Assembly: GCA_003599755.1 (NCBI GenBank)
Contig: QZJO01000009.1
Coordinates: forward strand, 214,362-263,839
DNA from: Candidatus Parcubacteria bacterium
Lineage (GTDB): Bacteria; Patescibacteriota; Minisyncoccia; Sungbacterales; SURF-37
Length of the DNA: 49,478 bases
Direction of reading: 5' to 3'
The notes under the pieces are model-generated. The model was given only the letters and a program-made list of their open reading frames with translations. It was not told where the DNA came from and ran no database searches. The translations under genes were made by a program, and so were the position numbers. Below are positions 7,945 to 27,624 of the stretch, in pieces (the first letter of the stretch is position 1; each line of letters begins with the position of its first letter).

Positions 7945-8186
7945 GACTTCCTCCTTCGAGGCGGTGTGCGGTTCGTGCCGCACCCCTCTCTCGGAAGAGA
8001 GCCATGTACTGCATGAGTGCGACGTCAGTTCTTCAAGAATGAGTCGCTAACGTTGGTAATGCATGAGCTTTCCTCCTTTCTAATTATATTATATACTTTT
8101 ACAATAAATAGTCAATATATCGCCTCTGTCGAGTTTGAAAGACGGCAAGCGATATTCTATAGTAGCTAAGCTGCGAAATTGATATT

Positions 8187-8256
8187 CCGGGATCGTCTAG
8201 TGGTAGGACGCCGCGCTCTGGACGCGGAAACTGGGGTTCGAGTCCCTGTCCCGGAG
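8187..8256 (+). tRNA. tRNA-Gln (anticodon CTG)
   Basis: tccggga/tcccgga acceptor stem, ccgcg-ctctgga-cgcgg anticodon arm, ggggttcgagtccc T-arm. Confidence 0.92.
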
Positions 8257-9906
8257 GAGAAGGCGTGATTTCGGGTCAGAATCCCGGAATCGTGCCTTAG
8301 CAAGAGGGTTTCTGGAGGTTCGAATTTTCTTTCGAGGCTCCTGTGACTCCATGATAGATTTATCGGGCGCTGTTACAGCAACGCCAGACAGGACGCCCTT
8401 TTCGGGGGTGTTTTGTGTTGGTTCGAATTTTTCGGCATCCAGCTTCTCTTGTACGCGCCTCGCAAGGCGTTCTACTGGCTCCGAGAGAGTATACGCAACC
8501 TTCTTATCCTTCAGCATCAAGGCGGAAAAGATGTAGCCAAGCAGGAGTCGCCGTTCGTCTGGTGTGCGTTTTTCATAGATTTCCCTAGCCCGGCGGGCTA
8601 AATCGATTACATCGAGCCAAAGTTCAAAATAGCGTGACTCCTCGGATTTGAGACGAGTCATCTGCTCACGGATTTGCTCTTGCTCATTATTAATTTCACC
8701 TTCTTTCCGTTTCCATACCTCATTCGAGACGCCATCATCTAGTCGAATTTCGAAAAGGCGGTCGAGTCTCTTCTGCAAACTTTCGTATCGAGCAGAGAGT
8801 GCGCGTAAAGCATTTTCCTTGTATTCAATCTCCTCTGCGTGGTCAGCCTTGATGCCGTTTCGTATAGCGTCTGCCTCCGCTGGCGTGATTGCTTCGAAGA
8901 GTTCGAATACCCCCTTAATTTGACCCTCGATTTCTTCCTCACGCACAAATGCCGTCTGCTTACATCCGCGATAATGATTGCAGTGGTAGTAAACGTGGCC
9001 TTTTTGAATTTCACCTGTGATAGTTCCACCACATTCGCTACAAGTCAAAGTTTTCTTGAAAGCAAAAATATGTTTTCGGTACTTGGGGCCTCCTCCGCGG
9101 ACAAGACGTTGTTGAACAACATCAAAAAGCTCCTTCGTGATAAGTGCCGTATGCTTGCCATTTGGATGAACTTCACCATTCCAGCGCATAGCCCCATAGT
9201 AAAAAACTTCTTTCAGCAACCTTTCGATTGCACTCTTTACTACCATCCTTCCAGAGCGGGCGCGAAAACCTTCAGTGTATAATTTTTCCGTCAAAGATTT
9301 CAGCGAATAATTCCCCGAGGCATATAACTCAAAAGCCATCCTCACAAACGGTGCGCGCTCATCGTCTATGATGTGTTCTTTATGACCCCTGTCGCCCGTG
9401 GTTTTATAACCAATTGGCGGCTCTGCGGGCAACCATCCCTGTTCTAGTTTTTCACGATGACCCTTTCTCACCTCTTCAGATAGGTTTGTAATCTGTTTCT
9501 TTGCCAAAACAATCTCGATGTCCCAACGAAACTTTTCGTCGGAGGTAGCATTTCGATGTATAACCAAATTCTGTTTCACAAAATGAACTTGGCGTTCTGG
9601 AGCAATTTCTATCCAATCATTCACTACGACCGCTTCTTTCATATTACGCGTGAGTCGGTCAACTTTTTCGCAAAGCAAATTTTGGATTTGGTAGTCTTCA
9701 ATATACTCCATCATCGCAGAGAAAACTTGGCGTTGCTTTCTTCCGCTAGCAGATTCTGATATTGAGAAGATATTCGCAACTTTGAATCCTTTTCGTGCGG
9801 CATAATCTTTGAGTAATCTTTCTTGCGCTGGAAGCGAATAACCAGTTTCCTCTTGCTCGCGCGAGGAGACGCGACAGTAGAGAACTGCGCCGTTGTTTTT
9901 ATTCAT
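8197..9906 (-). CDS. large serine recombinase / site-specific integrase
   Basis: AVLYCRVSSREQEETGYSLPAQERLLKDYA resolvase start; KTLTCSECGGTITGEIQKGHVYYHCNHYRGC Zn-ribbon; coiled-coil C-terminus; reads into tRNA-Gln antisense. Confidence 0.93.
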   Translation of the reverse strand: MNKNNGAVLYCRVSSREQEETGYSLPAQERLLKDYAARKGFKVANIFSISESASGRKQRQVFSAMMEYIEDYQIQNLLCEKVDRLTRNMKEAVVVNDWIEIAPERQVHFVKQNLVIHRNATSDEKFRWDIEIVLAKKQITNLSEEVRKGHREKLEQGWLPAEPPIGYKTTGDRGHKEHIIDDERAPFVRMAFELYASGNYSLKSLTEKLYTEGFRARSGRMVVKSAIERLLKEVFYYGAMRWNGEVHPNGKHTALITKELFDVVQQRLVRGGGPKYRKHIFAFKKTLTCSECGGTITGEIQKGHVYYHCNHYRGCKQTAFVREEEIEGQIKGVFELFEAITPAEADAIRNGIKADHAEEIEYKENALRALSARYESLQKRLDRLFEIRLDDGVSNEVWKRKEGEINNEQEQIREQMTRLKSEESRYFELWLDVIDLARRAREIYEKRTPDERRLLLGYIFSALMLKDKKVAYTLSEPVERLARRVQEKLDAEKFEPTQNTPEKGVLSGVAVTAPDKSIMESQEPRKKIRTSRNPLAKARFRDSDPKSRLLLRDRDSNPSFRVQSAASYH

Positions 9907-10634: not shown

Positions 10635-11156
10635 TTATTCTTCATAGGGAGTCTTATTAGTGGTTGATTCTGACATTATCGGCGATGTAGATTCGGCACT
10701 ATCTAGCGACTCGCTCTGAACGGACACCAGAAACATAAACTCGTCGTACTGCCGCTGAGTTATTTTGCCCGTCTGGAGCAGTGCCAATTTTTCACTATCA
10801 ATAATGGCCTCCAATTTGCGCCACAAGCCATCGAGGTCGTAAACATAGGTGTGATATGGACGACCCGCTAAACGGCGAACAGAGAGGTACCCTAGGCGCT
10901 TCAGGTGTTCTTTAGAACGAAAGATGGTCCGTCGAGTTATCCCACTCTCTCGGCTCATCCGCTTAATACTTGGAAAAATTTCACCGTTTTGTCTTTTATA
11001 CGAAAGCAGATGTGAAAGAAAAACAAAATCTGACGAGCGTAATCCCAATGCTTTCGTGTTCCTCAAAAGGGCATTAGGAATCATCGTAAAACCGCTATGA
11101 GAAATCCGGTAACGGTACAATTTTCCAAATTTTTCCTCACTCGGATTTTTGTTCAT
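10635..11156 (-). CDS. helix-turn-helix protein (replication-initiator-like)
   Basis: FTMIPNALLRNTKALGLRSSDFVFLSHLLSYKRQNGEIFPSIKRMSRESGITRRTIFRSKEHLKRLGYLSVRRLAGRPYHTYVYDL winged-helix pattern; ATG at 11156 overlaps the upstream small ORF. Confidence 0.65.
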   Translation of the reverse strand: MNKNPSEEKFGKLYRYRISHSGFTMIPNALLRNTKALGLRSSDFVFLSHLLSYKRQNGEIFPSIKRMSRESGITRRTIFRSKEHLKRLGYLSVRRLAGRPYHTYVYDLDGLWRKLEAIIDSEKLALLQTGKITQRQYDEFMFLVSVQSESLDSAESTSPIMSESTTNKTPYEE

Positions 11157-11286
11157 TCCCCATTTTCTGATTCCGATTGTCCTCAGAATCAAAACGCGCT
11201 AAGAGGTCGAAAAATCCGACAAGAGCTTCGACAATACGCTTGTCTGCAAGTGGAGTTTCTTCTTTTTTCGTTTCGTCTCGAGGCAT
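11137..11286 (-). CDS. 49-aa small ORF overlapping the HTH gene start (not in supplied ORF track)
   Basis: MPRDETKKEETPLADKRIVEALVGFFDLLARFDSEDNRNQKMGNEQKSE; counterpart at 27376-27543 in element 2. Confidence 0.6.
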   Translation of the reverse strand: MPRDETKKEETPLADKRIVEALVGFFDLLARFDSEDNRNQKMGNEQKSE

Positions 11287-11292
11287 AAAAAT

Positions 11293-11360
11293 CCGCTAAT
11301 CGCTGGACGGGTTCAATGGGGAAGCGGACCCGTCAAGCGATTAACGGACACCCCCATTGA
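11293..11360 (-). promoter_or_regulatory. structured leader: P1/P2 hairpin plus loop-complementary upstream strand
   Basis: P1 11293-11304/11336-11347, P2 11306-11312/11328-11334, loop tcaatgggg 11313-11321 complementary to ccccattga 11352-11360. Confidence 0.6.
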
Positions 11361-11407
11361 TTTACCGCACGCGAAAAAACCGCAGTCTCACGACTGTGGT
11401 GCTAAGC

Positions 11408-11457
11408 AAAATGGCTGCCACGCACCCCACACTCGTGAGATAAGTGGCAGCCATTTT
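11408..11457. terminator. 14-bp perfect inverted repeat aaaatggctgccac/gtggcagccatttt
   Basis: A-run on one side and T-run on the other; candidate bidirectional terminator. Confidence 0.6.
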
Positions 11458-11544
11458 CCTGCCGTTCGCCCCCGTCAAAGGGTAGCGACTCAAAGGAGGT
11501 TCCCATCCTCCGGTAACACGCACTCTAACTTGGAGAGTAGCGTT

Positions 11545-12266: not shown

Positions 12267-14063
12267 ATGGGGATGAAATATACAAACTTTCGAGTCGAAA
12301 ACTTCAAAGGAATTCAGTCGCTCGAACTCAATTTAGCCCCGGAACGCGATTTAAAAATCTTTACTCTAGTGGGGTTAAATGAGAGTGGCAAAACTACCAT
12401 TCTCGAGGCTATAAACTTTTTTCAAAATGACATCCCAGAGGATAAGCGCCATACACTTATTCCTAAAAGTAAAAAATCAAATTTCAATGGTGCTGTTAGT
12501 GTTGAGGCAATACTCGTTCTAGATGCCGAAGACGAAGAATCTATAAAAATTTTCTCTAAAAATAATGGGTTTATCATCACGCAGGACATTAAAAGTATAA
12601 CCCTCACTAAGAAATATGTTTTCCTCCGTTCCGAATTTCAGAAAGTCGAGTGGTATTGGAAGGCACAAATCATCGGGAAGAAAAAGCGCTCAAATCAAAT
12701 AAAAGCCCTTTCTGCTACAGGACCGACGTTTCTTCTGATTGCTCAAAACCATATCCGGAAGTTATTACCAAGATTGGTATACTACCCAAATTTTCTATTC
12801 GACTTCCCTAATAAAATTTATTTGGAGGAGGCGGAAGGAGAATCCCAAGAGCAGCAGTTTTACCGTCAAGTTTTTCAAGATATTTTAGACTCATTAGACG
12901 GTGGCCTTCGACTCGATGAGCACGTTTTGAATCGCCTAAAATCCAGCACAGAGCAAAATCGAGAAGCTCTCGATTCGACCATTAACCAGATGGGTTCCAA
13001 GATAACGAAAACTGTCTTTAAGGCCTGGGAAGAATTATTCAAATCACGCGGAAAAGAAATAATCATCAAACCAGATTTTGAGACTATCGAAGGCGGCGAG
13101 AAAAAGTATTTTATCGAACTTAAATTAAAGGCTGGCTCGGAACAGTATCAGATTTCGGAAAGGAGTCTCGGCTTCAAATGGTTTTTTGCTTTCTTACTCT
13201 TCACTGAATTTAGAAAAAATAGGGCTGCCGATAAGGGGGAGATTTTATTCCTCCTAGATGAACCGGCTTCAAATTTACACTCGACCGCACAAATGAAATT
13301 GGTGAAAACATTTCAGGAACTCGTAAGCAAAAGTAAACTTATCTATACAACACACAGTCATCACTTGATAAATGGCGATTGGCTGGAAGGCGCTTTTATT
13401 GTTCGGAATAGAGCGCTGGATTATGAAAATGAATTTAACTACGACGCCTCTCAAACTGACATAAGTGCGGTTCCTTACAAACAGTTTGTTGCAAAGCATC
13501 CAGAGCAACAGACTTATTTTCAGCCGATACTGGATAGTCTTGATTACAAGCCGAGTTCCCTCGAGATGGTTCCGGATATAGTCATCGTTGAAGGGAAAAA
13601 TGATTTTTATACCTTCAAATACCTAAATGAGGTTATTCTGAATAGGAAATTTACGCTCAACTTTTACCCAGGTAACGGCGCGGGGAAAAATGGTCAGGTC
13701 ATTAAATTGTACCTCTCTTGGGGTAGAAAATTTGTGGTCATTATGGATTCCGATGTAGCAGGGAGAGAGGCAAAAGAAAAGTATCTCTCAGATTTTGGTA
13801 AAATCATTGATGGCAGAGTATTTACGCTCGCAGACGTTAATTCACGGTGGAACAAAATTGCTACAGAGGGGATGTTTGCGAAACGGGAGCGAATAAAAGT
13901 TATCCAAACTCTGGACGATAAGTTCAAGCAGGATAGCAAACAGAAGTTCAATTTGGCTATGCAAAATTTAGTATTTTTTGGGAGACCGATGGTCTTCGGT
14001 GATACGACAAAAAAGAAATTTGAAGATTTGTTCAATTTCTTAACAACTAAACTTCAATCGTGA
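12267..14063 (+). CDS. OLD-like ATP-dependent nuclease (AAA ATPase plus TOPRIM)
   Basis: Walker A GLNESGKT; signature-like SLGFKWFFAF; Walker B ILFLLDEPASNLH; switch TTHSHH; TOPRIM IVEGKND and MDSDVAG. Confidence 0.8.
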   Translation: MGMKYTNFRVENFKGIQSLELNLAPERDLKIFTLVGLNESGKTTILEAINFFQNDIPEDKRHTLIPKSKKSNFNGAVSVEAILVLDAEDEESIKIFSKNNGFIITQDIKSITLTKKYVFLRSEFQKVEWYWKAQIIGKKKRSNQIKALSATGPTFLLIAQNHIRKLLPRLVYYPNFLFDFPNKIYLEEAEGESQEQQFYRQVFQDILDSLDGGLRLDEHVLNRLKSSTEQNREALDSTINQMGSKITKTVFKAWEELFKSRGKEIIIKPDFETIEGGEKKYFIELKLKAGSEQYQISERSLGFKWFFAFLLFTEFRKNRAADKGEILFLLDEPASNLHSTAQMKLVKTFQELVSKSKLIYTTHSHHLINGDWLEGAFIVRNRALDYENEFNYDASQTDISAVPYKQFVAKHPEQQTYFQPILDSLDYKPSSLEMVPDIVIVEGKNDFYTFKYLNEVILNRKFTLNFYPGNGAGKNGQVIKLYLSWGRKFVVIMDSDVAGREAKEKYLSDFGKIIDGRVFTLADVNSRWNKIATEGMFAKRERIKVIQTLDDKFKQDSKQKFNLAMQNLVFFGRPMVFGDTTKKKFEDLFNFLTTKLQS

Positions 14064-14767
14064 AAAGTTCACCACTGCGTAACCTCGATGTAATAAAGAC
14101 CTGGGTTAAGGATATATACGCTGATTTTGCGTTTGATATCATTGGATTTGCCACGAAAAGCGGCAAGGCAATCCCCCTGAACCTAGAGCCGGGTACACTA
14201 GGGAATGTAATCGAGGGCGTTCTCATCGCGCACCTAAATCAAAAAGTGAACGGGGATACAAATATCTCGGTTACAGAAGGGGGTTTCCGATACTACCCAG
14301 ACCTCGAACTCACGGGACCTTTATTTGACAACCAATTAATAGCACTTGATATAAAAGCGGCTCGCCGAAGCGAGAGAAACCAAAACCGAACACAATCTCG
14401 AATCACACTTTACAGTTTTGGAACTTATCTTAAATTTCAGGATAAAAAATTCCCGCAGACCATAAGGCCGTTTGCAGATTATAAATATCACCTTGACCTC
14501 ATCGCGATTTTCGATGTGAACCCAAAGGAGAAAAGCGTTGGCAACTTTGAGTTGCTAATTGTAGAACCCTGGAAGATTGCTTCCAAAACTGCCTCTAGCG
14601 CTACCAGAGACTATGTAGGAGCAATTATGGAGATTGATAAAATAAAGAATGAAACAGGCGGCGAGTTTAAAACCCAGAAGGAATTTTATGATTTCTGGGC
14701 TTCAATCCCTCGTCGTGGTCAAGCGGCGAAGGAGCGTGGAATAGATTCTACGCAAGCTGCTCCTTAA
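14060..14767 (+). CDS. EcoRV-like PD-(D/E)XK restriction endonuclease
   Basis: GTG start overlapping the upstream stop by 4 nt; FRYYPDLELTGPLFDNQLIALDIKAARRS gives a PD..DIK active site as in EcoRV; convergent with an m5C MTase. Confidence 0.75.
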   Translation: MKSSPLRNLDVIKTWVKDIYADFAFDIIGFATKSGKAIPLNLEPGTLGNVIEGVLIAHLNQKVNGDTNISVTEGGFRYYPDLELTGPLFDNQLIALDIKAARRSERNQNRTQSRITLYSFGTYLKFQDKKFPQTIRPFADYKYHLDLIAIFDVNPKEKSVGNFELLIVEPWKIASKTASSATRDYVGAIMEIDKIKNETGGEFKTQKEFYDFWASIPRRGQAAKERGIDSTQAAP

Positions 14768-15812
14768 CAGCCATACCGAGTACCTCGCTCAATCTAGCAG
14801 GAACTGCATTGCCGATTTGTCGTTGGACAGATGATGCCTTCCCAGCGAACTTGTAATTATCTGGGAATGTTTGAATCCTCTTTTTTTCTTCGAAGGTCAA
14901 ACGTCTATTTTCCCAATGGAATGGCCCAACATAAGGTCCGGGCTGTGCCTGTATCGTCCAAGATGGTTTATTGGGAGAGAGTTTTAATAAAAATGTCCAG
15001 TACCTCGAGCGCCATTCAAACAAGGGATTGGGATGTCCCCTTTTTCTAGTGAAGTAGAGGTAATTTTCTCCGGGTGGAACCTCGGATAATAGATGCCCCC
15101 ACTTACCACCAACGAGAAGTTCCTTCGGAGTATCTCGCCAGAAGTGCCTAAGGCCATCGAAGGCCTGGCGGGCAGTCACGAACGGGACTAATTTTTGCGC
15201 AAATAAATTGCCAGAGCCAACATTTTTTGAAGAATCAACGTGAGTAGTTTTAGGAAATTCTAACCTTTTCTTTTGGGACCCTAGTATTATTAATCTCTGT
15301 CTGATTTGTGGAACCCCATACTCTGCCGTGTTTACAACCTGATATGTAATTTCGTACCCGAGTTTATCAAACCCCCCTCTTAAAAATTCAAATGCGTCTT
15401 GGTTGTTTTTATAGGCGAGGCCAAAAACATTTTCCAAGAGAAAGGCGCGTGGTTTTGTCTCTTTCAACACTCTTATATATTCGCGTAAGGTCACCGCACG
15501 CGGGTCTTTTAGCCCCTGGGAACCATTCCAGAACGCCGATTTAGAGAATGGCTGGCAGGGCGGGCCACCAACTAGGAAATCCACTTCCCCTTTCTTTAGA
15601 TTTCCCGCTTCGAGAATTTTTTTTGTTGATATTTTAGTTATATCGCCTTCCAAAACGGCAGTGTCTGGAAAGTTTGCGCGAAGGGTCTCGCAACTGTCGT
15701 GGTCGAAATCCAGAGCGACGGCAATATCGAAACCGGCTCGTTTGAGACCAATATCAAGACCCCCAGCACCAGAATATAAACTTATAACCTTTGGCTTACT
15801 ACCCTTCTTCAT
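14748..15812 (-). CDS. DNA (cytosine-5) methyltransferase
   Basis: VISLYSGAGGLDIGLKRAGF...LVGGPPCQPFSKS...PRAFLLENVFGL...QIRQRLIILG...RQIGNAVP. Confidence 0.95.
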   Translation of the reverse strand: MKKGSKPKVISLYSGAGGLDIGLKRAGFDIAVALDFDHDSCETLRANFPDTAVLEGDITKISTKKILEAGNLKKGEVDFLVGGPPCQPFSKSAFWNGSQGLKDPRAVTLREYIRVLKETKPRAFLLENVFGLAYKNNQDAFEFLRGGFDKLGYEITYQVVNTAEYGVPQIRQRLIILGSQKKRLEFPKTTHVDSSKNVGSGNLFAQKLVPFVTARQAFDGLRHFWRDTPKELLVGGKWGHLLSEVPPGENYLYFTRKRGHPNPLFEWRSRYWTFLLKLSPNKPSWTIQAQPGPYVGPFHWENRRLTFEEKKRIQTFPDNYKFAGKASSVQRQIGNAVPARLSEVLGMAVKEQLA

Positions 15813-16028: not shown

Positions 16029-16178
16029 ACAGGGACTCGAACCCGGGAAAGGGGTCGGGGAAACGGTAGTTTTCCCGCGGTGGAAGTATTGAAACCGCAA
16101 GGTTTCAAGGAGCGGTGTTAGCGCACGCAGGTGCGCGTGCCGCGACGGGTTCTAGGCGCGTAGCGCCGGAGTCCCTGT
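16029..16178. other. multibranched structured region at right end of element 1
   Basis: acagggactc (16029-16038)/gagtccctgt (16169-16178); gaaccc (16039-16044)/gggttc (16147-16152); hairpins gaaacc-gcaa-ggtttc, gcgcac-gcag-gtgcgc, ggcgc-gta-gcgcc. Confidence 0.6.
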
Positions 16179-16370
16179 CCCGGAGTTGCAGAAACAAAAT
16201 GCCCCTTGCGGGCATTTTTTGTTTTCTGTGGAATCTTTGAAACAGGGGCGAGAAGGGAATGCCAGTCGGCATTCCCAGGGCTTTTGCGAGGGGCAAAAGG
16301 AGTCCCTGTCTTCCTTCAGGAATTGCGGCGACGGTTCTAGGCGCGCAGCGCGGGAGTCCCTGTCCCGAAG
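16141..16370 (+). repeat. two imperfect ~44-bp att-like direct repeats
   Basis: 16141-16185 and 16327-16370 share gacgg(g)ttctaggcgcg(t/c)agcgc..ggagtccctgtcccg(g/a)ag; a shorter copy ggagtccctgtc lies at 16299-16310. Confidence 0.7.
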
Positions 16371-25091: not shown

Positions 25092-26663
25092 TTATGCGGG
25101 ATGGACGAGTAGTACGTCGGGGGGCTCATAACCCCCAGGCCCCGGTGCAATTCCGGGTCCCGCAACTAGACCGGACTCATTGCCTGTAAATCGTTGCGAA
25201 AGTTCGAAAACAGGCGACAGAACAGCGGTGCAAAATGCACCGGCTGTTTTGTCATATGTAAGCCCTTCCGGGAACACCACGTTTTGAATTCGCTGTTTAA
25301 CTTTGATATCTGTTGCTGCAACCCAATTATTGGAGATGTCCGCAATAAATCTCGTGCCGAAATTAACCACAGCCTCCGCATCGAGCTCGTCGATAGCACT
25401 TTCGTTCTGCGATATCCGAAGGCCGACTATCTGGTTTTCGATGGAATCCTTATTTGAAGTGAATTCTTCACGGCTTATCTCGCCGTTCATCCGCATTTGC
25501 AGCAAGCGGTCCTTGCGCATCTCCAGCCTCTTCATTTCCTGCTCGTAGAATTCCCGGGCCTTGGAAAGTGTCTGTCGCTGGTTTTCCCATCGATCTAACA
25601 GAATGATCCGGAAGGCTTGCAGGAAGCGTTCCTTGGGCGCAATTTGCCCCAGAAGGGCAACGAACATATCTTCCAGGTCTTCGCGGATGATATTCAGACC
25701 GCAGTTTCCGCAGGAACGATTTCGGCAGTTATAGTACGCGTACTTTCGAGATCGGCCCTTTCGCCAGCCACCCGTAAGCCGTACTCCGCACGTGCATTTT
25801 ATGAGTTTTCGGAGTGGGAAATCAGGATTGTCGCTCAGATGCGCCGCCCCTCGTTTGAACGATCCATTCTTTATCCCTTGAATCCGCTCAAAATCGTCCA
25901 GCGAGATCATCGCCTCATGTCGGCCTTGATATTCCTTGCCAGTCCATGGATCGACAAGCACACCCGCGTAAAATTTATCTCGGAGCATCGTTTCGACCAG
26001 CTGCTTGCGCATCGCCTTACCCGTACGCGTCCTCAGGCCCCAGTCGGTATACGTCTGTGTCAGACGCTCGATTGTGTAGCCGCCCTTGGAATACTCCAGT
26101 AGCCCTCGCTGGACTAAGAAAAACCGTTCAGGATCTGGCTCATCGGCGATCGTTTTCCTGCGGTCCAATCTTTTCTTAGAGTTAATGTACCCGATTGGCG
26201 GTTGCCATGGACGTATTCCTTCTTCGATGCGCCGTCGAAGACCGCCTTCGCATCGTTGGCGTCGGATGTCATTTTCGAACTGCGCGTAACCGGCCAAAAC
26301 AGCCTCCGTCATCTTGCCGATTGGATCATCGCTGATCGGTTCGGTCACGGAGTGGAGTCGTACACCGTATTTCGCCAACTGCGCTCGGAGCCCGTAGTGA
26401 TCCGTTGTATTCCGTGCGAATCGGTCAATCTTCCACACAATGAATCCCTCGATTTTCTGTTTGGATTCGCGGCAGAAATCAAGGGCCCGGATAAGTTCAG
26501 TCCGATTTGCCGCAGTCGCCGATTCTCCGCGCTCGACAAATACGCGAGCGATGTCTATTCCATGCGCGGCGGCATAGTCCGCGCATGCCCGTTTTTGATT
26601 TTCGAGAGATGTTCCGTGCGTTTGTTCTTGCGAAGAAACGCGTACGTAGACGATACCGTTCAT
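25092..26663 (-). CDS. large serine recombinase / site-specific integrase
   Basis: MNGIVYVRVSSQEQTHGTSLENQKRACADYAAAHGIDIARVFVERGESA; KLIKCTCGVRLTGGWRKGRSRKYAYYNCRNRSCG Zn-ribbon; C-terminus encoded antisense through tRNA-fMet. Confidence 0.93.
   Translation of the reverse strand: MNGIVYVRVSSQEQTHGTSLENQKRACADYAAAHGIDIARVFVERGESATAANRTELIRALDFCRESKQKIEGFIVWKIDRFARNTTDHYGLRAQLAKYGVRLHSVTEPISDDPIGKMTEAVLAGYAQFENDIRRQRCEGGLRRRIEEGIRPWQPPIGYINSKKRLDRRKTIADEPDPERFFLVQRGLLEYSKGGYTIERLTQTYTDWGLRTRTGKAMRKQLVETMLRDKFYAGVLVDPWTGKEYQGRHEAMISLDDFERIQGIKNGSFKRGAAHLSDNPDFPLRKLIKCTCGVRLTGGWRKGRSRKYAYYNCRNRSCGNCGLNIIREDLEDMFVALLGQIAPKERFLQAFRIILLDRWENQRQTLSKAREFYEQEMKRLEMRKDRLLQMRMNGEISREEFTSNKDSIENQIVGLRISQNESAIDELDAEAVVNFGTRFIADISNNWVAATDIKVKQRIQNVVFPEGLTYDKTAGAFCTAVLSPVFELSQRFTGNESGLVAGPGIAPGPGGYEPPDVLLVHPA
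25095..25165 (+). tRNA. initiator tRNA-fMet (CAT)
   Basis: tgcggga...tcccgca acceptor with T1:A72; ggggg-ctcataa-ccccc anticodon arm with G:C pairs at the loop; cccgg-tgcaatt-ccggg T-arm. Confidence 0.85.
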
Positions 26664-26760: not shown

Positions 26761-27243
26761 TCATGTCCTTATCGTTTCATTTCGGCTACCGGGTGGTTCT
26801 GCCGCGGGTACGCCGGAGTTCTCCCGCGCTCCCTTCGGAATTTCAATCCTGTTACGAGGGCTAGGCATTAAGGCGCCATCATCAGCCGGACCAGTGAACG
26901 CAGATGTATCAACTTCTGGCCAATAATGGAGATCGTAGAACGTGCGCCCCGCTGCGTCCCGGAATTTATTGAGATACCCTTTTTGTTGTAAGTTACTCGA
27001 CAATCTCGATACGCTGGCTGCTTTTTGCAGGCCCATTAGCCGAGCCAATCGCCTGCGCGCGGGGAACACTAGGCTTTTCGACTTGAAGGCGAAGCAGGCC
27101 AAGATCATCCATAGGCGTCGTTCCGCCTCCGTAAGGCGTTGGTCCGCAAGCAACGCCTTAGGGATGCGGACGTAGAATTCATCATCGAACTGATCTTCCT
27201 CAAGGCGTCTGAGGAATGACCTGTAGCTGCGGACAGTGACCAT
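26761..27243 (-). CDS. helix-turn-helix protein (replication-initiator-like)
   Basis: RIPKALLADQRLTEAERRLWMILACFAFKSKSLVFPARRRLARLMGLQKAASVSRLSSNLQQKGYLNKF; positional counterpart of 10635-11156. Confidence 0.6.
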   Translation of the reverse strand: MVTVRSYRSFLRRLEEDQFDDEFYVRIPKALLADQRLTEAERRLWMILACFAFKSKSLVFPARRRLARLMGLQKAASVSRLSSNLQQKGYLNKFRDAAGRTFYDLHYWPEVDTSAFTGPADDGALMPSPRNRIEIPKGARENSGVPAAEPPGSRNETIRT

Positions 27244-27245
27244 TT

Positions 27246-27425
27246 CTATTCAACTGCGTTCCTAATATCGATGGTCCAGATGTCGCCCTTGTTGGTCGCT
27301 TCATGGCCTAAGATGCGCGCGCCCAGGGCAAGCAAGGTGAAGCAGGTCTTCCAGTCGCGAACGAGAATGACTTCACTACCGATCCGTAGATATTCCAGTT
27401 TCGATGGTTTTTTTCTTTTGTTCAT
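27246..27425 (-). CDS. small hypothetical protein
   Basis: MNKRKKPSKLEYLRIGSEVILVRDWKTCFTLLALGARILGHEATNKGDIWTIDIRNAVE. Confidence 0.55.
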   Translation of the reverse strand: MNKRKKPSKLEYLRIGSEVILVRDWKTCFTLLALGARILGHEATNKGDIWTIDIRNAVE

Positions 27426-27543
27426 TGGATTTTGGCAAGCTTCCCAAGACCAAATCAGCAAGCTGTGACAGGGCTTCGAATATCTGCTGTGCTTCGGCGT
27501 CAGAAAGATCGCCGGTTAGATTTTTGAGTTCGTCGAGGGTCAA
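27376..27543 (-). CDS. 55-aa small ORF with TTG start (not in supplied ORF track)
   Basis: (M)TLDELKNLTGDLSDAEAQQIFEALSQLADLVLGSLPKSNEQKKKTIETGISTDR; G-rich SD-like tract ggggga upstream; IxEAL..DL segment shared with 11137-11286. Confidence 0.55.
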   Translation of the reverse strand: MTLDELKNLTGDLSDAEAQQIFEALSQLADLVLGSLPKSNEQKKKTIETGISTDR

Positions 27544-27551
27544 ATTAAATC

Positions 27552-27624
27552 CCCCTATTTCGAAGGCAGGCTTCTGATGCCGGATGGCACCTGCCCTCGA
27601 AATAAGGGGTAGTCGGCATCAGAA
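27552..27624 (-). promoter_or_regulatory. structured leader: P1/P2 hairpin plus loop-complementary upstream strand
   Basis: P1 27552-27563/27597-27609, P2 27565-27570/27590-27595, loop ttctgatgccg 27572-27582 complementary to cggcatcagaa 27614-27624. Confidence 0.6.

Follow-up and report, generated by a model that had tools for sequence, protein, structure and literature searches.

Interleaved candidate leader structures at the head of serine recombinase operons in two tRNA-inserted elements of a Candidatus Parcubacteria bacterium, with a proposed strand-exchange mode of action

The genome of the Candidatus Parcubacteria bacterium considered here measures 929 kb, with an estimated completeness of 100%, a small size that together with the relatives found fits Patescibacteria, and the window analysed is a stretch of 49,478 nucleotides from contig QZJO01000009.1 (forward strand, 214,362 to 263,839), whose own numbering is used throughout. 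Two integrative elements lie within it. Element 1 ends at a tRNA-Gln gene (8185-8257) and element 2 at a tRNA-Met gene (25095-25166), and in each case a large serine recombinase reads into the tRNA, such that the final residues of both recombinases are encoded by the complementary strand of the target tRNA. At many related loci, recombinase ends are likewise overlapped or abutted by tRNAs. The 3' end of tRNA-Gln, GAGTCCCTGTCCCGGAG (8240-8257), occurs again at 16169-16185, and a version with a single change at 16354-16370; these copies sit inside 38-nt repeats, 185 nt apart, and by their sequence are two possible right ends of element 1. The cargo of this element (12267-15812) comprises an AAA_15 ATPase, an EcoRV-like nuclease/restriction enzyme and a C5 methylase, and is likely a restriction-modification or defence cassette. 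In both elements, the minus strand carries a leader, a small ORF, an HTH gene and the recombinase, in that order, with other ORFs interspersed:

11137..11286, minus strand: 49-aa ORF, type-b member of a conserved small-protein family
10635..11156, minus strand: HTH_36 / DnaD_N protein of copy 1, replication-initiator-like by family match
8197..9906, minus strand: large serine recombinase 1, 3' end overlapping tRNA-Gln
27376..27543, minus strand: 55-aa small ORF of copy 2, type a, TTG start
26761..27243, minus strand: HTH_36 protein of copy 2, by family match
25092..26663, minus strand: large serine recombinase 2, 3' end overlapping tRNA-Met

The leader of element 1 (copy 1, or c1) consists of a strand A, a hairpin B and a strand A' in the loop of B that is the exact complement of A, so that the four pairing segments interleave as A-B-A'-B' on the minus strand. 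Its parts, those found directly upstream and the corresponding parts of the element 2 leader (copy 2, or c2) are as follows:

11643-11616, minus strand: promoter-like TTGACA-16-TAAAAT, 11/12, about 255 nt upstream of strand A (shuffled expectation 0.01 for at least 10/12)
11405..11460, minus strand: long upstream hairpin AAAATGGCTGCCAC...GTGGCAGCCATTTT, from sequence repeats and folding
11457-11386, minus strand: c1a, a second interleaved structure (A 14 nt, L1 3, B 14 pairs)
11374..11396, minus strand: intrinsic-terminator-like hairpin CAGTCGTGAGACTG then CGGTTTTTT
11360-11352, minus strand: strand A, TCAATGGGG, from sequence and topology scan
11348-11292, minus strand: hairpin B with its loop, about 20 pairs, from folding and topology scan
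11348-11336 and 11334-11328, minus strand: 5' arm of B, TCCGTTAATCGCT then GACGGGT
11321-11313, minus strand: loop strand A', CCCCATTGA, from sequence and topology scan
11312-11306 and 11304-11292, minus strand: 3' arm of B, ACCCGTC then AGCGATTAGCGGA
11287-11291, minus strand: T-run TTTTT separating hairpin B from the ATG (11286)
27614..27624, minus strand: copy 2 strand A, TTCTGATGCCG, 11 nt, from sequence and topology scan
27551..27609, minus strand: copy 2 hairpin B, 20 pairs, with loop strand A' CGGCATCAGAA, from folding and topology scan

The pattern of upstream strand, hairpin and loop strand in copy 1 had been pointed out in an initial annotation of this DNA, and its letters and the exact A:A' complementarity are confirmed here with small corrections. 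The mismatch described within the outer stem is a U.G wobble, that between the two stem segments, G/A on the plus strand, is U.C in the transcribed orientation, and the hairpin ends 5 nt, not 6 nt, before the ATG. As described, the 49-aa ORF (11286-11137) runs into the HTH gene, whose start lies at 11156; the overlap is 20 nt. The second copy, also proposed earlier, exists and is the stronger of the two, with an 11-nt A, an L1 of 4, an L3 of 1 and a 20-bp stem free of mismatches. Two features were absent from that annotation: the promoter-like site, which by its sequence would start the copy 1 leader, and c1a, which adjoins copy 1 directly upstream and whose B' overlaps the terminator-like hairpin. 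The minimum free energy (MFE) of copy 1 has a z of -3.6 (101 nt), and that of the leader of about 320 nt that would run from the promoter-like site a z of -7.3 (327 nt).

The leaders do not align, and a topology scan therefore took the place of the covariance model that had been suggested for the two copies. The scanner seeks the order A-L1-B-L2-A'-L3-B', with A exact and B permitted wobble pairs and two mismatches, and returns a single score. When the host genome was scanned in stretches, the three highest scores belonged to c1a at 11457 (42.0), c2 at 27624 (41.0) and c1 at 11360 (38.5), which are also the top minus-strand matches within the window and which all head operons of the two tRNA-inserted serine-recombinase elements. 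The next-best genomic scores were 35.5 and 35.0, and dinucleotide shuffles (two rounds, 1.86 Mb) reached 37.0 once and otherwise 33.5. From this ranking it follows that the interleaved structures are real and, at these scores, confined to the two elements of this genome.

At least 12-14 other elements, nearly all from Patescibacteria, show the same layout in unrelated letters, usually placed between an intrinsic terminator that directly precedes it and a small gene downstream. A search with the element 2 recombinase yielded 61 loci (one genome per species) and a further 80 from IMG/VR. In 1.24 Mb of loci scanned there were 23 matches scoring at least 32, against none in 0.59 Mb of shuffles, and the strongest patescibacterial ones (loci L096, L079, L074, L072, L147, L111 and L094) lie on the operon strand just before the operon. 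Further leaders were found at L311, at L322 and, among loci adjacent to LOOT RNAs, at L324, L388, L390 and L391; the leader at L137 comes from a Bacteroidia bin, and at L324 inspection of a short stretch revealed no ORF. Four of the 16 leaders (L094, L390, L391 and L322) score 30-32.5, near noise, and were accepted for position or motif, since a small ORF or shared motif follows directly. Among viral serine-recombinase loci (L154-L231), the topology scan gave no match of at least 36. Rejected as leaders were L103:1151 (a different conserved hairpin), L080 (an AT-rich repeat), L101 (no downstream gene), L305 (AT-rich) and L346:1335, which scored 42.5 and was excluded as repetitive. At L071 (= L105) the standard layout is absent, and two hairpins with competing arms precede its small ORF.

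No similarity between leaders was detected by blastn, in which a subset of the leaders served as queries, and Rfam gave no match above its gathering score (24.9 bits at most, to a hairpin family with a cut-off of 90). A and A' nonetheless match exactly in each leader, over 7-12 nt, despite unrelated sequence. This outweighs column covariation, since each copy is a fresh solution of the same pairing.

Two other RNA features were encountered at these loci. Several of them (L103:1150-1200, L104:1180-1225, L099 and L306:1998-2041) have in common a different hairpin, TTTAGTGAAT...ATTCACTAAA, which is conserved and whose loop (about TAAAATGGGTC) is conserved in part. LOOT RNA (Rfam RF03000) lies, divergently, some 0.3-1.4 kb from the leader in most leader-bearing elements checked (LOOT at L079:4834-4954, L074:4848-4965, L096:2183-2299, L147:1180-1300, L105:2051-2175 and L072:3105-3223); it was not found in the window. 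Within the class, 106 of 387 genomes have a match, against none of 14 controls; this distribution and the proximity to leaders suggest that LOOT belongs to these integrative elements.

The 49-aa ORF scores 24.0 bits against a leave-one-out HMM of its family, compared with a best of 8.7 among about 2000 shuffles, and the 55-aa ORF of copy 2 scores 27.6 bits against 8.0. Profile searches place this family upstream of the recombinase and on the same strand at about 40 recombinase loci, mostly patescibacterial with a few from Bacteroidetes and proteobacteria, and with or without an HTH/Rep gene. Accordingly, the earlier reading of the 49-aa ORF as a leader peptide stands insofar as the ORF exists and overlaps the HTH start, and falls insofar as it made the product nothing more: the small ORF is a conserved protein, found, as the leader structure is, in other elements. 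Pfam and NCBIfam returned no convincing family for it; its predicted structure is two helices at modest confidence (pLDDT 76), and one might guess at a recombinase partner or directionality factor. At L085 and L086, a type-b small ORF overlaps one of type a in a tandem arrangement, which suggests that the two types are related partner proteins. Many small ORFs of the family have no A-B-A'-B' leader, and the leader is therefore an optional control added to the operon.

Behind the small ORF stands an HTH / DnaD_N gene in copy 1 and an HTH_36 gene in copy 2, and the description of the former as Rep-like is borne out by its family match and by its relation to proteins of 3-5 kb enterobacterial plasmids, so that a replication role for the element is conceivable. 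An IMG/VR search with the HTH protein gave no matches. In two small enterobacterial plasmids whose HTH protein is related (L010:680-775 and L011:4830-4960), the HTH gene is immediately preceded by a terminator-like hairpin and then a palindrome, nearly perfect and at least about 20 bp long.

Folding predictions supply an order of events. In the MFE fold of the prefix ending at A', strand A is paired with A' in all 16 leaders (with at most 1 nt of A unpaired), and in that of the full leader the B hairpin is present in all 16. Among the first 11 leaders, predicted energies run from -15 to -23 kcal/mol for A:A' and from -7 to -31 kcal/mol for B below its top seven pairs. Complete A:A' pairing and a full B of 13-29 pairs cannot, on geometric reasoning, coexist, since L1 spans only 0-6 nt, and a pseudoknot form can by the same reasoning retain only the top of B. 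The proposal that the leader has two competing folds is thus upheld at the level of prediction. A hairpin acting as an attenuator would be expected to have an earlier alternative that excludes it, and such a structure is predicted in 16 of 16 leaders. It would also be expected to be stable and to end in a U-run before the gene, as is seen in 11 of 16: a T-run of at least four, found at 12% of random positions, lies at the base of B in these 11, copy 1 included, and is lacking in copy 2 and four others.

The non-Watson-Crick pairs of B bear on which nucleic acid is at work. Across the 16 leaders there are 30 G.U against 11 A.C pairs when both are allowed equally (p = 0.004), and 19 against 4 in the first 11 (p = 0.003); the scanner favours G.U over mismatches, a bias that this symmetric recount lessens without removing. 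Because DNA would give the two in equal number, the excess points to a leader that acts as an RNA of the coding strand.

Taken together, these observations lead us to give roughly even chances to the reading that the copy 1 region encodes a leader RNA acting in cis, which uses co-transcriptional strand exchange to hold down transcription, translation or both in the integrase operon. Its basis, namely complementarity, recurrence, position and predicted folding order, is computed; its function we infer, including transcription from the upstream promoter, an effect on termination and translation, and any trigger. Strand A would emerge first and pair with A' before B' is made, yielding a transient A:A' hairpin; as B' emerges it would pair with B and, since A:A' and the full B stem cannot coexist, displace A:A'. 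The closed B hairpin would turn the operon down, by terminator-like action in most leaders, where a U-run follows its base, and by start-site blocking in most, where the stem reaches the start codon. As five leaders lack the T-run and the start codon lies more than 10 nt from the stem in five, neither effect alone fits all. Where A:A' persists, RNA polymerase would pass and ribosomes load. Expression of the small ORF, the HTH gene and the recombinase would thereby be tight, low or conditional. Neither a ligand nor a protein that triggers the leader was found, and without any trigger it would simply fix expression at a low level.

An unlikely alternative holds that the leader is a passive shield of the IS200/IS10 kind, in which a terminator and a start-blocking hairpin stop transcripts from outside expressing the recombinase operon. 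Structure at the 5' end of the mRNA is a recognised control of transposase genes (PMC8450116), 12 of 16 leaders have a hairpin with T-run 4-53 nt ahead of A (weak at L390, and followed by TTTG at L147), and the stem reaches the start codon in many. A shield leaves unexplained, however, the exact A:A' pairing in every leader. Moreover, copy 1, L147 and L094 have promoter-like sites matching at 10-11/12 positions 217-283 nt upstream (shuffled expectation 0.01-0.10 each), that is, upstream of the terminator, so that the leader would be part of the operon's own transcript; sites of at least 10/12 occur in only 3 of the first 11 leaders.

Less probable still is autogenous control, whereby the small protein, the HTH protein or the recombinase would bind the A:A' form, here a pseudoknot with a partial B stem, and repress or activate its own operon. 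Such topology at the head of an operon invites this explanation, as does a first gene that often encodes the conserved two-helix protein, yet no loop or stem letters are conserved for a protein to read, and first genes vary between elements.

Copy control of the plasmid type by a counter-transcribed RNA (IncFII / IncI), the logic originally proposed for this locus, fares poorly and is in our judgement very unlikely. The initiator-like HTH / DnaD_N protein with its plasmid relatives, the small ORF overlapping the HTH start in copy 1 and loop sequences unique to each element all recall such systems. However, a consensus scan for antisense promoters of at least 9/12 came up empty at both c1 and c2 and gave a single one among 11 leaders, where shuffles predict 2.3; the small ORF is a conserved protein; and no rep-like gene was recognised in the operons after the L074, L079, L096 and L311 leaders. 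A DNA-level site of interleaved inverted repeats (a replication origin, transfer origin or recombinase site), which would suit a mobile element and could work in single-stranded DNA, is highly improbable given the G.U excess on the coding strand, the orientation of the structure toward the operon and mostly then a T-run or start codon, and target tRNAs lying about 3 kb (element 1) and 2.4 kb (element 2) away.

Beyond this locus, we think it plausible, at somewhat short of even chances, that patescibacterial integrative elements share a sequence-independent class of leader RNAs (terminator, A, B, A', B', gene), strand-exchange timers or attenuators that would evolve by total sequence turnover with strict compensation, like plasmid incompatibility loops. 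If so, RNA control of mobile-element genes would be widespread in a bacterial group whose regulation is nearly unknown, alignment-based RNA discovery would miss the class since no letters are conserved, two helices that exclude each other topologically without shared bases would become a testable case, and the leader would be tied to a small, conserved protein that partners serine recombinases. Topology-based exclusion without shared bases, sequence-free recurrence and a link to patescibacterial elements were not found in searches of Rfam and of open-licence papers.

Competing folds in leader RNAs are themselves well known. In the countertranscript attenuators of the pT181 type, on which PMC10724649 lists a reference, alternative folding in the rep leader involves an intrinsic terminator; in the leaders described here, by contrast, no countertranscript is seen, and the pre-empting strand pairs with the loop instead of the terminator's 5' arm. 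In IS200 and IS10, the leader of a mobility gene carries a terminator and a start-blocking hairpin, an anatomy seen in many of our leaders, which differ in heading a serine recombinase operon, in the extra pairing of the loop with an upstream strand and in having no antisense promoter seen. Control of transposase mRNAs through their structure has been discussed (PMC8450116). With the IncFII tap/repA and IncI repY/repZ leaders, the literature on which is listed in PMC10724649, the locus shares a structured leader, a small ORF overlapping an initiator-like gene and the idea of a pseudoknot, whereas its strand A lies upstream of the hairpin and not beside the rep start, no antisense promoter is seen, the small ORF is conserved and the rep gene appears optional. 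The fluoride riboswitch first folds into a pseudoknot, which a terminator then disrupts (PMC11077080). The present leaders likewise set a first pairing of pseudoknot type against a later hairpin with a U-run; unlike that riboswitch, they have no conserved aptamer, and A:A' and B share no bases, such that their exclusion would be steric and topological.
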